DNA of 48,555 nt from the NCBI RefSeq assembly GCF_000495475.1, contig NZ_ASGZ01000018.1:1-48555 (forward strand), in the 5' to 3' direction. Position numbers and translations under genes: made by a program. Of the stretch, positions 36,968 to 42,046 are shown in pieces; position 1 is the stretch's first letter, and every line of letters starts with the position of its first letter. This stretch comes from Candidatus Halobonum tyrrellensis G22. Its GTDB lineage: Archaea > Halobacteriota > Halobacteria > Halobacteriales > Haloferacaceae. The notes beneath the pieces are model-generated. The model saw only the letters and a program-made list of their open reading frames with translations. It was not told the origin of the DNA and ran no database searches.

Positions 36968-38671
36968 TCAGCCGCCCAGCGGCGGGTCGCCCGGCGGGAG
37001 CGCGTCGGGTTCGACCGTCGGACGGTCGTGGGGACGGCGGTACCGCGCCACCGGCCGCCGGTCCGCGTCGGCGTCGTCGACGGTCTTGTCGACGGCGTAG
37101 GCGGTGTACGTACACGACTCCCGGGAGAACTCCACGACCGCGTACCCCCAGTCGTGGGTGTCGAAGAACGCGGTCTGGGGGTTCATCGCGGGCACGCCCC
37201 GCCCGAACAGCGCCCGGGTGAGCCGCCCGGCGAGTCCCTCCGCGACGCCGAGCGACTCCGCGATGTTGACGCTCGTCATCGCGGGCCCCATGAACTCCGT
37301 GCCGACGGCGTCGCCCCGCGTCCCCTCGGTCAGTTGCGTGCCGACGACGTAGCTGTGTAAGTCGCCGCTCACCGTCACGACCGACGGATCGGCGTCCGCG
37401 AGGGCGTCGAACGCCCGGCGACGCTCGGCGGGGAAGCCGTCCCACGTCGAGTCGGCCTTCGGGTACACCGACAGCCGCCCCGCCCCCACCCGGAACGGCA
37501 CCGACGTGACGGCGCTGACCCACCCCAGCCAGCGGCCGTCCGCCTCCCGGACCCGGCGGTCGAACCAGTCGAACTGGTCGGCGCCGAGCATCGAGCGGTC
37601 GGGCGCGCCCTCCCGGCCGAGTCCGAACGTCGCGCCGAACAGCGACAGCGCGTCCGGCGGCGGGCCGTCGCGGTAGAAGCGGTGGTCGGTGACCAGCAGG
37701 TCGAGCAAGTCACCGAACCGGAGCGACCGGTAGAGCCGGAACGAGTCGTGGAGGTGCGCCTCCTCGGGGTCGTACCGGACCCGCGCGGGGACGTGTTCGT
37801 ACCACGCGCGGGTGCCGGCCGCGGTCAACCGCTCGGCGAACGCCGGGTCGTCGCCGCGCGGGTGGTCGGGGAGCGCGGGCGCGTCGGCCGCGTCGTCCCA
37901 GTAGCGGTCGTTCGACACCGCGTGGTCGTCCCACGACGCGATCAGGGTGTGCGCTTCGAGCGCGCGCTGGTACAGCGGGTCCGACCGGTAGGTGCGGTGG
38001 AGATACCGGTAGTCGGCGAGCGACGACGCGCGGTCGTGCCCGCTCGGGAGCGTCAGGTCGCGGCCGGTCGGGCGGTCGCTCCCCGCGAACAGGCCGCCGG
38101 CCGACTCGTAGATGAGGTCGCCCGTGTGGAGCAGGAAGTCGACGTCCTCGTCGGCGACGTGCGCGAACCCGCCGTAGTAGCCGTTCTCGTAGTCCTGACA
38201 GCCGACCACCCCGAACCGGACCGACTCGGGGCTGGCGTCGGGCGTGGGCAGGGTCCGGCACCGACCCGTCCGGGAGGCGACGCCGTCGTGGACGAACCGG
38301 TAGCGGTACTCGGTGTCCGACTCCAGCCGGCCGTCCACGTCGATGCGGACGGTGTGGCCGTACGCCTCGCCCACCCGGTCGTCGGGGACGCGCCCGGCGA
38401 GTACCGGGTCGGCGAACCCTCCGCCTCCGCCCGCGTCGTCGCCGTTTTCGGTGTCGGCGACGGCGACCACCACCGGTTCCGCGGGGTCGTACCGCTCGGG
38501 GTCCAGGCGGGTCCAGAGGACGACCCCCTCGGGCGTCGGCCCGCCGCTCGCGACGGACTGGGGGAACACGTCGCCGGCCGCCGCGTCGTCGGCCGCCACC
38601 GCCGCGTCGGCGGCGCCGGCGGCGTCCGCGAGCGCTTCAGGCCGGACGTCGGGCGTCGCCTCACCGCCCAT
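36968..38671 (-). CDS. PhoD-family alkaline phosphatase/phosphodiesterase without signal peptide
   Basis: A 567-residue PhoD-like metallophosphoesterase. The N-terminal Fn3-like domain includes DVFPQSVASGGPTPEGVVLWTRL and EYRYRFVHDG. The phosphatase core has VVGCQDYENGYYG, LLHTGDLIYE (Asp ligand), ASWDDHAVSND, FDWFDRRVREADG and VTVSGDLHSYVVGTQL. Family members are normally exported by Tat, with an RRxFL motif. Here the first 35 residues are Ala/Asp-rich (EALADAAGAADAAVAADDAAAG) with no Arg pair and no hydrophobic core. No in-frame start with such a motif exists upstream before a stop at about 38786. It is therefore predicted cytoplasmic, or to have lost its export signal. Confidence 0.9.
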   Translation of the reverse strand: MGGEATPDVRPEALADAAGAADAAVAADDAAAGDVFPQSVASGGPTPEGVVLWTRLDPERYDPAEPVVVAVADTENGDDAGGGGGFADPVLAGRVPDDRVGEAYGHTVRIDVDGRLESDTEYRYRFVHDGVASRTGRCRTLPTPDASPESVRFGVVGCQDYENGYYGGFAHVADEDVDFLLHTGDLIYESAGGLFAGSDRPTGRDLTLPSGHDRASSLADYRYLHRTYRSDPLYQRALEAHTLIASWDDHAVSNDRYWDDAADAPALPDHPRGDDPAFAERLTAAGTRAWYEHVPARVRYDPEEAHLHDSFRLYRSLRFGDLLDLLVTDHRFYRDGPPPDALSLFGATFGLGREGAPDRSMLGADQFDWFDRRVREADGRWLGWVSAVTSVPFRVGAGRLSVYPKADSTWDGFPAERRRAFDALADADPSVVTVSGDLHSYVVGTQLTEGTRGDAVGTEFMGPAMTSVNIAESLGVAEGLAGRLTRALFGRGVPAMNPQTAFFDTHDWGYAVVEFSRESCTYTAYAVDKTVDDADADRRPVARYRRPHDRPTVEPDALPPGDPPLGG

Positions 38672-38838
38672 CGGTCGGCCTCCGACCGGACGGGTCCGGG
38701 CGTTCGAGGGGGTCCGGGGTTTCCGGGCGTTCGTCGCGCTCTGCGGGTTTCGCGGGGTCGACGGCCGGCGCGAACGGAGGTGAGGTCACTCGTTGGCCGC
38801 TCCCGGCCGGACGTATTGAAGCCGGCGGCCGTCGGAGC

Positions 38839-38878
38839 GTCGGACCGCCGGCGTCCGACCCCCCGCCGGTTGGCGGGG
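38839..38878. other. Two adjacent perfect hairpins
   Basis: GTCGGAC (38839-38845) pairs with GTCCGAC (38853-38859) across a 7-nt loop. One base later CCCCGCC (38861-38867) pairs with GGCGGGG (38872-38878) across GGTT. Both 7-bp stems are perfect. They could be a structured RNA, a transcription barrier between divergent genes, or chance in G+C-rich DNA. Confidence 0.4.
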
Positions 38879-38948
38879 CGGGTCCGACTGGGCGAACCCG
38901 CCGCAGGAGCCGTGTCGACTGTTCGCACGCCCGAGACGCATTGAACAC

Positions 38949-38956
38949 GTTTATAC
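38949..38956 (+). promoter_or_regulatory. TATA box of the L7Ae ribosomal operon
   Basis: GTTTATAC lies about 115-122 bp before the rpl7ae ATG. By haloarchaeal spacing, transcription would start near 38978, leaving a leader of about 90 nt. Most other clear promoters in the window are at leaderless distance. Confidence 0.65.
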
Positions 38957-39028
38957 AGGCAGACGGCAAACCGATGTAGTACGACCCGTTCGGGGTCGTG
39001 ACCCTCTCCGCGCTCAGGGACTCTACGA

Positions 39029-39049
39029 GTGGCGGGGAAGTCGAGCCAC
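39029..39049 (+). promoter_or_regulatory. Predicted L7Ae-binding kink-loop in the rpl7ae leader
   Basis: The RNA reads GUGGC, GGG, GA, AGUC, GA, GCCAC in order. GUGGC (39029-39033) pairs perfectly with GCCAC (39045-39049). Between them are a 3-nt bulge GGG (39034-39036), G37-A38, the 4-nt loop AGUC, and G43-A44. That is the k-loop consensus: canonical stem, three-nucleotide bulge, tandem sheared G.A/A.G pairs, terminal loop. It ends 5 nt before the Shine-Dalgarno of the gene for L7Ae, the protein that binds such motifs. An autoregulatory site is inferred. Confidence 0.72.
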
Positions 39050-39054
39050 CGAAC

Positions 39055-39061
39055 GGAGGAG
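39055..39061 (+). promoter_or_regulatory. Shine-Dalgarno of rpl7ae
   Basis: GGAGGAG lies 9 nt before the ATG at 39071, in contrast to the mostly leaderless genes of this window. It starts 5 nt after the k-loop stem, so protein bound to the k-loop could block ribosome access. Confidence 0.6.
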
Positions 39062-39070
39062 CACCCACCA

Positions 39071-39433
39071 ATGTCAGTCTACGTCGACTACGATGTACCC
39101 GCGGACCTCGCGGAGCGAAGCCTCGACGCGCTCGAGGTCGCCCGCGACACAGGCACCGTCAAGAAAGGAACCAACGAGACGACCAAGGCCGTCGAACGCG
39201 GCAACGCCCAACTCGTCTACATCGCCGAGGACGTCGAACCCGAGGAGATCGTGATGCACCTCCCCGAACTCTGCGAGGAGAAGGGCATCCCGTACGTCTT
39301 CATCGACACCCAAGACGACGTGGGCCACGCCGCCGGCCTCGAAGTCGGCTCCGCGGCCGCCGCCGTCACCGACGCCGGCGACGCCGAGTCCGACGTCGAG
39401 GACATCGCGGACAAGGTCGAGGAACTGCGATAA
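39071..39433 (+). CDS. rpl7ae: Ribosomal protein L7Ae (eL8)
   Basis: A 120-residue L7Ae, which binds kink-turns in 23S rRNA and in box C/D and H/ACA guide RNPs and is a subunit of archaeal RNase P. Landmarks are [17 protein letters not shown] (RNA-contacting KGxNE region), [17 protein letters not shown] and [17 protein letters not shown]. The tail is acidic. It is first gene of the operon L7Ae-S28e-L24e-Ndk. The start at 39071 has a Shine-Dalgarno; an in-frame ATG at 39029 would translate the k-loop itself and lacks homology. Confidence 0.98.
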
Positions 39434-39439
39434 CCCACC

Positions 39440-39664
39440 ATGTCGGCTGAAGAACAAGAGAGCGGCTCCACGTCGGCCGAAGTGATCGAGGTCGTCGGCA
39501 AGACCGGGATGCACGGCGAGGCGATGCAGGTCAAGTGCCGCATCCAGGAGGGCGACAACCAGGGCCGCATCATCACGCGAAACGTGCTCGGGCCGATCAA
39601 GCAGGGCGACGTGCTCCAGCTTCGGGAGACCCAGCGCGACGCCGACTCCATCGGAGGTCAATAA
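39440..39664 (+). CDS. rps28e: Ribosomal protein S28e
   Basis: 74 residues: [60 protein letters not shown]. The OB-fold protein of the small subunit head is full length. It starts 6 bp after rpl7ae and its stop overlaps the rpl24e start (TAATG), so the three are co-transcribed. Confidence 0.98.
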
Positions 39665-39840
39665 TGCCACAGCACCGAGACTGCGACTACTGCGGCGCGG
39701 ACATCGAGCCCGGCACGGGCACGATGTTCGTGAGCCGCAACGGGAGCATCACGCACTTCTGTTCGGCGAAGTGCGAGAAGAACACCGACCTCGGCCGCGA
39801 GGCCCGCGACGTCGAGTGGACGGAGGCCGGCCAGGAGTGA
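39664..39840 (+). CDS. rpl24e: Ribosomal protein L24e
   Basis: 58 residues with a treble-clef zinc finger: CDYCG (residues 7-11) and CSAKC further on, typical of L24e. [17 protein letters not shown] is diagnostic. The ATG overlaps the rps28e TAA by one base. A 70-bp spacer with inverted repeats separates it from ndk. Confidence 0.97.
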
Positions 39841-39842
39841 GC

Positions 39843-39920
39843 CACGCGAGACGTTCCCGCTCGGCGGACTGCGACTCGCGAGCTCACGCTCGCCACCGGG
39901 GGTGGCTCGCGTGAGCCACC
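39843..39920 (+). promoter_or_regulatory. Alternative hairpins around the ndk GTG start
   Basis: Three mutually exclusive pairings use the same strand. (1) GGTGGCTC (39901-39908) with GAGCCACC (39913-39920), a perfect 8-bp stem whose loop GCGT starts the GTG codon at 39911. (2) GCCACC (39892-39897) with GGTGGC (39901-39906), loop GGG. (3) CACGCGAG (39843-39850) with CTCGCGTG (39906-39913), sequestering the start. GTGAGCCAC is a direct repeat at 39837-39845 and 39911-39919. Possible translational switch; not demonstrated. Confidence 0.5.
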
Positions 39921-40390
39921 ACGACGAACGCACCTTCGTGATGGTTAAGCCCGACGGCGTCCAGCGCGGTCTCATCGGCGAGATCGTCTCGCGGTTCGAG
40001 ACCCGCGGGCTGAAGCTCGTCGGCGCGAAGTTCATGCGGATCGACGAGGAACTCGCACACGAACACTACGGCGAGCACGAGGGCAAGCCGTTCTTCGAGG
40101 GGCTGGTGGAGTTCATCACCTCGGGACCCGTCTTCGCGATGGTGTGGGAGGGCGCCGACGCCACCCGCCAGGTCCGGACGATGATGGGCGAGACCGACCC
40201 CGCCGACTCCGCGCCCGGTACGATCCGGGGCGACCTCGGACTCGACTTGGGTCACAACGTGATCCACGGCTCCGACCACGAGGACGAGGGCGCGAACGAA
40301 CGCGAGATCGACCTGTTCTTCGACGACGCGGAACTCGTCGACTGGGACCTTGACGCCGCCGAGTGGGTGTACGAGGACGAGGACCACTGA
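39911..40390 (+). CDS. ndk: Nucleoside diphosphate kinase
   Basis: 159 residues from a GTG start. The phosphoacceptor is His119 in GHNVIHGSD, with [13 protein letters not shown] and [17 protein letters not shown] upstream. It transfers gamma-phosphate between NTPs and NDPs. The start at 39911 (GTG) is chosen over an in-frame GTG at 39902 because the resulting [15 protein letters not shown] matches haloarchaeal Ndk N-termini from memory. The long acidic insert after HGSD ([11 protein letters not shown]) is halophilic. It is the last gene of the ribosomal operon, an arrangement widespread in archaea. Confidence 0.96.
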
Positions 40391-40469
40391 CGCCGTAGCG
40401 GTTCCCACCTCACCCCCACTCGGCCGACTCGAACGCGCAACGAACGCGTAGCCGTCGGTGACTCCCGCC

Positions 40470-40901
40470 TCAGCGGTCGAGCACCGACGCGACCCGGGCG
40501 TTCTCCTTGAGCCTGAGCGCGTCCCCCCGGCCGACCCGGTGGGGGACCGACAGCGGAACCGGCCCGAGGTCGGAGGTTCGGAGCGTCGGCAGCGACCCGC
40601 CGCGTTCGAGGAGTTCGCGCCGCGGCTGGAGGAGGACGGGGTCGTCGCCGGTCAGCGACTCGTTGAACTCGACGACGTAGCTCTCCTCGCGGAGTTCGTA
40701 CCAGCCGTAGTCGTCGCCCGGGTTCCGCAGCGCCGTCTCCAGCGGGTCGAGTTCGGCGTCCGCGAGTTCGCCGCCGCCGAAGTCGACGCGGCCGGGTTCG
40801 CGGACCACCTTCACGTCCGCAAGCGAGAGGTCGATACGGTCGTCGTGCACCTGGGTGGGTTCGTGGAGGAGTCCCTCGATACGGTCCGAGAGTGCGGTCA
40901 C
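40470..40901 (-). CDS. dUTPase/dCTP deaminase-fold protein
   Basis: 143 residues with the dUTPase-like beta fold: [61 protein letters not shown], then [16 protein letters not shown]. The conserved Asp and Gln of the first strand and the E/N of EFNESL resemble the uracil pocket of dUTPase and DCD proteins. The group hydrolyses dUTP or deaminates dCTP, but archaeal members of this shorter, divergent type are uncharacterised as far as I know. The start is GTG at 40901, chosen because a TATA-like CTTTTTCC (minus strand, 40926-40933) is about 26 bp upstream. Confidence 0.8.
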
Positions 40902-41024
40902 GGCCGGCCGTTTCCGGCGGTCGTCGGAAAAAGTCGGCGGCGACCAGGTCCACCTGGTACTGTCGGCGGCCGTCACCGCGCTCGCGGCGGGCCGCTCCGA
41001 CGAGGGCCGACCACAACGACAGCA

Positions 41025-41033
41025 CTCAAATCA
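41025..41033 (+). promoter_or_regulatory. TATA-like promoter of cofD operon
   Basis: CTCAAATCA is 21-29 bp before the cofD ATG at 41054, giving leaderless spacing. No further promoter-like sequence can lie between the four overlapping genes, so it is the likely promoter for the whole cofD operon. Confidence 0.5.
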
Positions 41034-41053
41034 CTGGCCGAGAGACGACGGGT

Positions 41054-42046
41054 ATGGTAACGTTCCTCGCCGGCGGCACCGGCACCCCCAAACTGCTCGA
41101 CGGTGCCGCGTCGGTGTTCCCGCCCGCCGAGACGACGGTCGTCGGCAACACCGGCGACGACGTCGAACTCGGGGGGCACCTCGTCTGTCCCGACGTCGAC
41201 ACGGTGCTGTTCGCGGGCGGCGGCGTCCTCGACCGCGAGCGGTGGTGGGGTATCGACGGCGACACGACCGCCACTCACGACGAACTCGACCGTCTCGCCG
41301 ACGCCGCGGGGCTGGAGCCGGGGCCGCGCTACCTGCCCGAGGAGGCGCAGACCGCCGGCCGCGACATCGCCCGCTGGCGGCGGTTCTCGGGCGTCGCGGA
41401 GTTCATGGAGATCGGCGACCGCGACCGCGCGGTCCACGTCACCCGCACGTCGCTGCTCGACGAGGGGTACACGCTGACCGAGGTCACGCGCCTGCTCGCG
41501 GACGCGTTCGGCCTCGACGTCGACCTGGTGCCGATGAGCGACGACCCCGTCGCCTCCATCGTCCACACCCCGGACGGGCCGCTGCACTTCCAGGAGTTCT
41601 GGGTGGCCGAGCGGGCCGGTCCCGAAGTCGAGGGGGTGGAGTTCCGCGACGCCGACGACGCGGCCGCGAGCGACGCCGCGCTGACGGCGCTCGACGACGA
41701 CGTGGTGGTCGGGCCGTCGAACCCGGTCACCAGCATCGGCCCGATGCTCGCGCTCGACGGGGTGCGCGAGGCGCTCGCGGAGGCGACCGTCGTCGCCGTC
41801 TCGCCGTTCGTCGAGGACCGCGCGTTCTCCGGGCCGGCGGCGACGCTGATGGAGGGAACCGGCACCGAGGCGAGCACCGCGGGCGTCGCCGAGCGCTACC
41901 CGTTCGCCGACGCGTTCGTCCTCGACGACGACGACGGCACCGACCTCGACCGACCGGTCGTCCGCACGGACACCCGGATGGACGACGCCGACGACGCCGA
42001 ACGGGTCGCCGAGGCGTGCGCCGCGGCGCTGGAGGCGGCACGGTGA
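41054..42046 (+). CDS. cofD: 2-Phospho-L-lactate transferase CofD
   Basis: 330 residues. It makes F420-0 by moving a phospholactyl group (or the archaeal equivalent) from the guanylylated donor to Fo. The N-terminal [15 protein letters not shown] motif (residues 3-17), [20 protein letters not shown] (28-47), [16 protein letters not shown] and ASIVHTPDG, then [14 protein letters not shown] are diagnostic of CofD/LPPG transferases. F420 supports redox enzymes and, in haloarchaea, DNA photolyase. The four-base overlap GTGA with the next gene starts a tightly coupled operon. Confidence 0.96.

Follow-up and report, generated by a model that had tools for sequence, protein, structure and literature searches.

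A conserved k-turn within a long hairpin in the rpl7ae leader of haloarchaea, a probable site of L7Ae autoregulation

By its sequence, the leader of the haloarchaeal gene for ribosomal protein L7Ae (rpl7ae) is a canonical-type L7Ae k-turn set within a long hairpin. The fold, its conservation and its gene specificity are demonstrated here for a window of 48,555 nt from Candidatus Halobonum tyrrellensis G22 (NZ_ASGZ01000018.1), the whole stretch of DNA that was analysed, and for its relatives. It is highly probable that, in the leader of the L7Ae-S28e-L24e-Ndk transcript, haloarchaea have their own version of the known autoregulatory k-turn of L7Ae, closing a hairpin and blocking the 30S subunit. 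Autoregulation of l7ae by a leader k-turn has already been published (PMC5539422, PMC6298567); what is new here is which strand pairs. The initial annotation of this DNA had proposed an L7Ae-type kink motif beside the Shine-Dalgarno (SD) sequence in the form of a k-loop; the motif and its place were borne out, and its form was not, being a k-turn within a long hairpin. The features of the region are as follows.

38950-38955, forward strand: TATA box TTTATA, from the sequence and from the fixed spacing of the TATA element to the k-turn in related leaders
38986-38996, forward strand: C-helix 5' strand (CCGUUCGGGGU), pairing with 39045-39056, A39048 being bulged
38997-39001, forward strand: Kt-b strand, with the 3-nt bulge CGU at 38997-38999 and GA at 39000-39001; UGA invariant
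39004-39015, forward strand: NC arm 5' strand, pairing with 39027-39040, from covariation and pair probability
39016-39026, forward strand: apical loop with AGGGAC, from a motif regex in relatives
39027-39040, forward strand: NC arm 3' strand, including the 5' arm of the initially annotated k-loop and the GA at 39037-39038
39029-39049, forward strand: the initially annotated k-loop, its letters correct, its pairing unconserved and incompatible with the conserved fold
39042-39044, forward strand: Kt-n strand, with the 3n C and GA at 39043-39044, from conservation in aligned leaders
39045-39056, forward strand: C-helix 3' strand, ending in the first two SD bases (39055-39056)
39055-39061, forward strand: Shine-Dalgarno GGAGGAG, from the sequence and its position relative to the C-helix across leaders
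39071-39433, forward strand: rpl7ae (L7Ae / eL8), ATG at 39071, containing GTNETTK (Pfam PF01248)
39440-39664, forward strand: ribosomal protein S28e (Pfam PF01200)
39664-39840, forward strand: ribosomal protein L24e (Pfam PF01246)
39929-40390, forward strand: nucleoside diphosphate kinase, Ndk (Pfam PF00334), in an ORF from GTG 39902, the start being approximate

The gene order L7Ae, S28e, L24e and Ndk given initially agrees with the Pfam assignments, and the L7Ae protein of the window matches haloarchaeal ribosomal L7Ae structures over its full length (e.g. 1s72_F). The region 37500-42000 holds many long overlapping ORFs in all frames; these are expected at such GC content and hence are no evidence of genes. 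With TTTATA at 38950-38955, transcription would be expected to start near 38978-38980, so that the C-helix would open the mRNA. The leader length of about 90 nt in the initial annotation is supported by this element and by the fixed TATA position in related leaders: a TATA-like element was found in 113 of 138 leaders scored, mostly at -43 from the upstream Kt-b motif, and the distance is exactly 43 nt in 83 of them. The region could also be read as coding, with L7Ae starting at the in-frame GTG at 39029. That frame is open in the window, but an in-frame stop lies within the 14 codons before the ATG in 83 of 197 relatives, and the SD and ATG are conserved, which leaves this reading with a negligible chance.

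Searches for L7Ae covered the family (148 genomes), the order (146) and the phylum (120), plus named genome contigs, and leaders were read from the order (197) and from other orders of the phylum (20); L149 (from the reduced genome family f2), L146 and L157 were left unplaced. The close relatives of the window are Halobaculum and neighbouring genera. In an alignment of 46 leaders, U38999, G39000 and A39001 of the Kt-b strand are invariant (46/46), as is the 1n A of Kt-n (A39044), and the 2n G (G39043) is present in 40. The Kt-n dinucleotide reads AA in 11 of 150 leaders. The Kt-b strand of the window corresponds to UUGAUGA or UCAUGA in relatives, many of which, read in the aligned register, have UGAU as a 4-nt bulge. 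Placing the k-turn on the first GA of UUGAUGA, as in box C/D RNAs, was considered and rejected, as this register breaks that of the covarying C-helix and leaves a G-G at -1.

Covariation supports both helices. An unfitted MAFFT alignment of the 46 leaders is quoted first because a fitted alignment leans towards its structure. In this alignment, 8 of the 11 base pairs of the C-helix show double compensatory changes, the covariation score of the whole fold was reached by none of 500 shuffles, and all slid registers scored lower. RNAalifold, given the alignment alone, proposes the same two helices, including most of the C-helix, and the signal persists when only 18, or only 8, divergent rows are retained. 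In the fitted alignment of 100 loci (90 distinct), 184 cells are doubly changed, against 60 in shuffles. The NC arm likewise covaries in the alignments and most of its pairs have a probability above 0.9; those of the C-helix are at about 0.99 except for the closing U-G (0.19), and the minimum free energy structure agrees with the fold. The covarying C-helix includes part of the SD, which across leaders mostly starts between one base inside the end of the helix and six bases beyond it; in the window just 39055-39056 of the SD are paired.

A covariance model of the fold matches 190 of the 197 haloarchaeal l7ae loci, 46 of these being its training set. Searched against 79 whole genomes, it found a match in 67 (62 of 64 of good quality), a few deep-branching families being without a match; wherever gene coordinates were compared, the best match lies directly upstream of l7ae, and other matches are weak. 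The genome of the window has one match with an E-value of 2e-17, the next being at 0.11, so this search gave no convincing further copy of the motif there. Rfam gave no match at E ≤ 1 within 38000-41000 of the window and none at E ≤ 0.1 in 20 related loci. Since no Rfam family now covers the fold, the covariance model could seed one.

L7Ae-bound k-loops occur in C'/D' and H/ACA RNAs, and the letters at 39029-39049 fit such an element. The initial annotation reported them exactly (GTGGC 39029-39033, GGG 39034-39036, GA 39037-39038, AGTC 39039-39042, GA 39043-39044 and GCCAC 39045-39049), along with the SD at 39055-39061 and the ATG at 39071, and a closed stem, a 3-nt bulge, tandem GA and a short terminal loop are all present. 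The k-loop is, however, neither conserved nor predicted to form in the leader. The pattern itself (a stem of at least 5, a 3-nt bulge, GA, a loop of 3-8 and GA) occurs 11 times on the two strands of the window, which is rich in GC, against about 3.3 in base shuffles, and is thus commoner than in shuffled sequence and not rare. Conservation was scored, allowing the register to vary and the bulge to be 3 or 4 nt, in 150 distinct leaders with a recognisable upstream Kt-b motif out of the 197 haloarchaeal rpl7ae leaders. A stem of at least 3 bp can form in 14 of them and one of at least 4 bp in 4, all from the window's own clade (L001, L002, L003 and L005). The GA at 39037-39038 reads GG in Halobaculum, GC in Halobellus and GU in Halonotius. 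In the 46-leader MAFFT alignment the stem shows no convincing covariation, with 2 doubly changed pairs against a shuffled mean of 2.1, and sliding the partner by +3 columns gives a higher score than the proposed register. The pair probability of the k-loop in the predicted ensemble of the leader is 0.000. A k-loop with a 4-nt bulge and GGC/GCC, present in 77 of the 150 leaders, was also considered and rejected; its bases, nearly invariant, already belong to two other helices, and it therefore has no evidential weight.

That the k-loop is the L7Ae site beside the SD is therefore very unlikely. All of its letters fit in the window and in three close relatives (L002, L003 and L005), and for H. 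volcanii Daume et al. pointed out a nearby Kt-b candidate less than 50 nt away, with some repression observed for 50 bp (PMC5539422); against this stand its poor retention among leaders, the higher score of the +3 slide, and a 5' arm that covaries with 39004-39015 instead. The comparison suggested in the initial annotation, GA/GA conservation together with stem covariation, thus goes against the k-loop and in favour of the k-turn. The 3' GA at 39043-39044 was rightly picked out as one of the two strands of the k-turn. Its supposed partner at 39037-39038 is not conserved and is otherwise paired, the true partner being 38997-39001, about 36 nt upstream, and what was annotated as the 5' arm belongs to the 3' strand of the NC arm, beyond the kink. 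Another reading would let the k-turn hairpin and the local k-loop alternate in the window's clade, with L7Ae perhaps using either strand. Each fold includes the Kt-n GA and excludes the other, and L001, L002, L003 and L005 retain a k-loop stem of 4-5 bp. This stem is, however, explained by the overlap of two other helices and is not kept outside the clade, and the best fold with the k-loop enforced is at -35.1 kcal/mol against -44.5 kcal/mol, making such alternation highly doubtful.

The conserved k-turn suggests the following mechanism. The mRNA would begin almost directly with the 5' strand of the 11-bp C-helix; the chain would then pass through the bulge and GA at 38997-39001, up and down the long NC arm, and through the GA at 39043-39044 to close the C-helix, whose last base pairs would take in the start of the SD. 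Free L7Ae in excess over its rRNA and guide-RNA sites would bind the tandem G-A pairs, fix the kink and keep the hairpin closed, with the protein about 14 nt from the AUG. Subunits of 30S would then be unable to load, and L7Ae synthesis would stop. L7Ae binding and repression in the window's leader are inferred from other archaea; as the leader has the same parts as published l7ae leaders, autoregulation is the best reading. With pairing in the window limited to the first two bases of the SD, masking of the SD alone may not suffice, and the SD has been reported as not strictly required in haloarchaea (PMC8241225).

The same report (PMC8241225), and a helix that is stable without protein, would suit a structured leader that acts constitutively, setting translation or mRNA stability independently of L7Ae. 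We regard this as improbable, given that conservation is highest at the unpaired GA/GA and bulge, which a k-turn binder alone explains, and that the downstream gene encodes that very binder. Processing of the leader into a box C/D guide RNA, with UGAUGA towards the 5' end, CUGA towards the 3' end and a terminal stem, is suggested by strands that read UUGAUGA and CUGA in some genera. The intervening region is, however, a covarying hairpin in place of a guide with C'/D' boxes, and the window has CGUGA and UCGA, which match neither box C (RUGAUGA) nor box D (CUGA); such processing is extremely unlikely. An H/ACA or C/D guide RNA was also rejected on the ground that the leader has no pocket or guide.

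For the L7Ae-bound k-turn, precedents come from several archaea. L7Ae of S. acidocaldarius both binds and represses the leader of its own mRNA (Daume et al. 2017, PMC5539422), and several other archaeal l7ae leaders, that of H. volcanii among them, respond to L7Ae in an E. coli reporter (PMC5539422). The initial annotation was aware of no haloarchaeal case; this has been overtaken, since that reporter had already been used with 50 bp of the H. volcanii l7ae leader (PMC5539422). The haloarchaeal leaders described here resemble those of Daume et al. in gene, place, an SD beside the k-turn, the 3-nt bulge and the tandem G-A, and differ in having a long NC arm with a conserved loop and a very stable covarying C-helix; high leader sequence conservation had been reported for Sulfolobales only (PMC5539422). 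For H. volcanii, about 50 bp of leader was tested and two candidate Kt-b strands were given, one nearby and one further upstream (PMC5539422). Covariation in related leaders favours the upstream candidate. None of the 184 leaders scored has its Kt-b motif within 50 nt of the start codon; the motif is always further upstream, beyond the reach of a 50-bp construct, and the tested 50 bp of H. volcanii would have been without Kt-b if its architecture is that of its relatives. In a table of H. mediterranei sRNAs (PMC5852579), HM9_V (27 nt) and HM10_V (42 nt) lie between rpl7AE and HFX_2747; these could be fragments of the l7ae leader. The yeast L30e system, as cited in PMC6298567, is alike in that an L7Ae-family protein controls its own mRNA via a k-turn, and differs in acting on splicing as well as translation and in being a different RNA.

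Before L7Ae binds, the A. fulgidus l7ae leader is open; the protein folds it into a k-turn in which the SD is hidden (Huang, Ashraf and Lilley 2019, PMC6298567). The leader of the window shares with it a bulge and GA/GA k-turn and an SD in or beside the C-helix, its bulge being CGU in contrast to GAU in the published set. In the published elements the C-helices are weak and the RNA lacks structure in the absence of protein (PMC6298567), whereas haloarchaeal C-helices are stable by predicted energy. The duplex energy of the C-helix has a median of -15.4 kcal/mol in 183 haloarchaeal leaders, and is about -15 kcal/mol without protein in the window; in seven non-halophilic relatives it ranges from -1.4 to -5.2 kcal/mol. 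These energies, computed for 1 M salt and 37°C with no k-turn term, serve as a guide only, and predict a haloarchaeal C-helix about 10 kcal/mol more stable than that of non-halophilic relatives, a difference that is new here. The predicted stability argues against the published switch, unstructured until bound, in haloarchaea. In silico the leader of the window is structured without L7Ae, in departure from the switch model of Huang et al.; being unstructured until bound is a property of the proposed mechanism and not of the k-turn motif. Going by the predicted energies, the haloarchaeal hairpin would already be formed without protein, and L7Ae would act by locking it and by steric block.

Compact leaders were seen in three deep families of the order (L142, L144 and L154, including families f9 and f11), with a short hairpin and an AAU or GAU bulge followed by GA; read by eye, the SD (ACGAGGUG) lies within the C-helix in L142 and L154, and this is weaker in L144. 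Related orders keep leaders of the form GAUGA...UGA...SD. In the leaders from other orders of the phylum (L202-L221), a repeated GAUGARUGAUGA strand is followed by a small hairpin and then by UGAAWGAGGUGA, and the possible C-helix pairs are mostly G-U and G-A. From these sequences, the haloarchaeal form looks like an elaboration of the leader of deep relatives, in which the C-helix and the NC arm are both longer and the loop carries YAGGGAY or ACAGGAY.

This apical-loop motif (YAGGGAY or ACAGGAY) was found by regex in 170 of 184 leaders. It is near-invariant and not explained by the k-turn, and is reported here as new. In some leaders (e.g. L141 and L176) the motif, at 39015-39021 in the window, is kept even with extra hairpins inserted after it. 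We tentatively raise the possibility, which we hold to be less probable than its converse, of a preformed salt-stable hairpin in which L7Ae sets only the kink and the apical loop is a second functional element. Under such an arrangement the loop may make a tertiary contact in the kinked state only, act as an alternative partner of the 5' CC of the C-helix and so free the SD, or be bound by a second protein encoded in the operon.

The strands of the regulatory k-turn are hereby fixed for a whole archaeal class, where published work had left two Kt-b candidates in H. volcanii. The one reporter test of a haloarchaeal leader to date was probably made with a construct short of half the k-turn, and the published switch model, built on the weak hairpins of thermophiles, may not carry over to halophiles.
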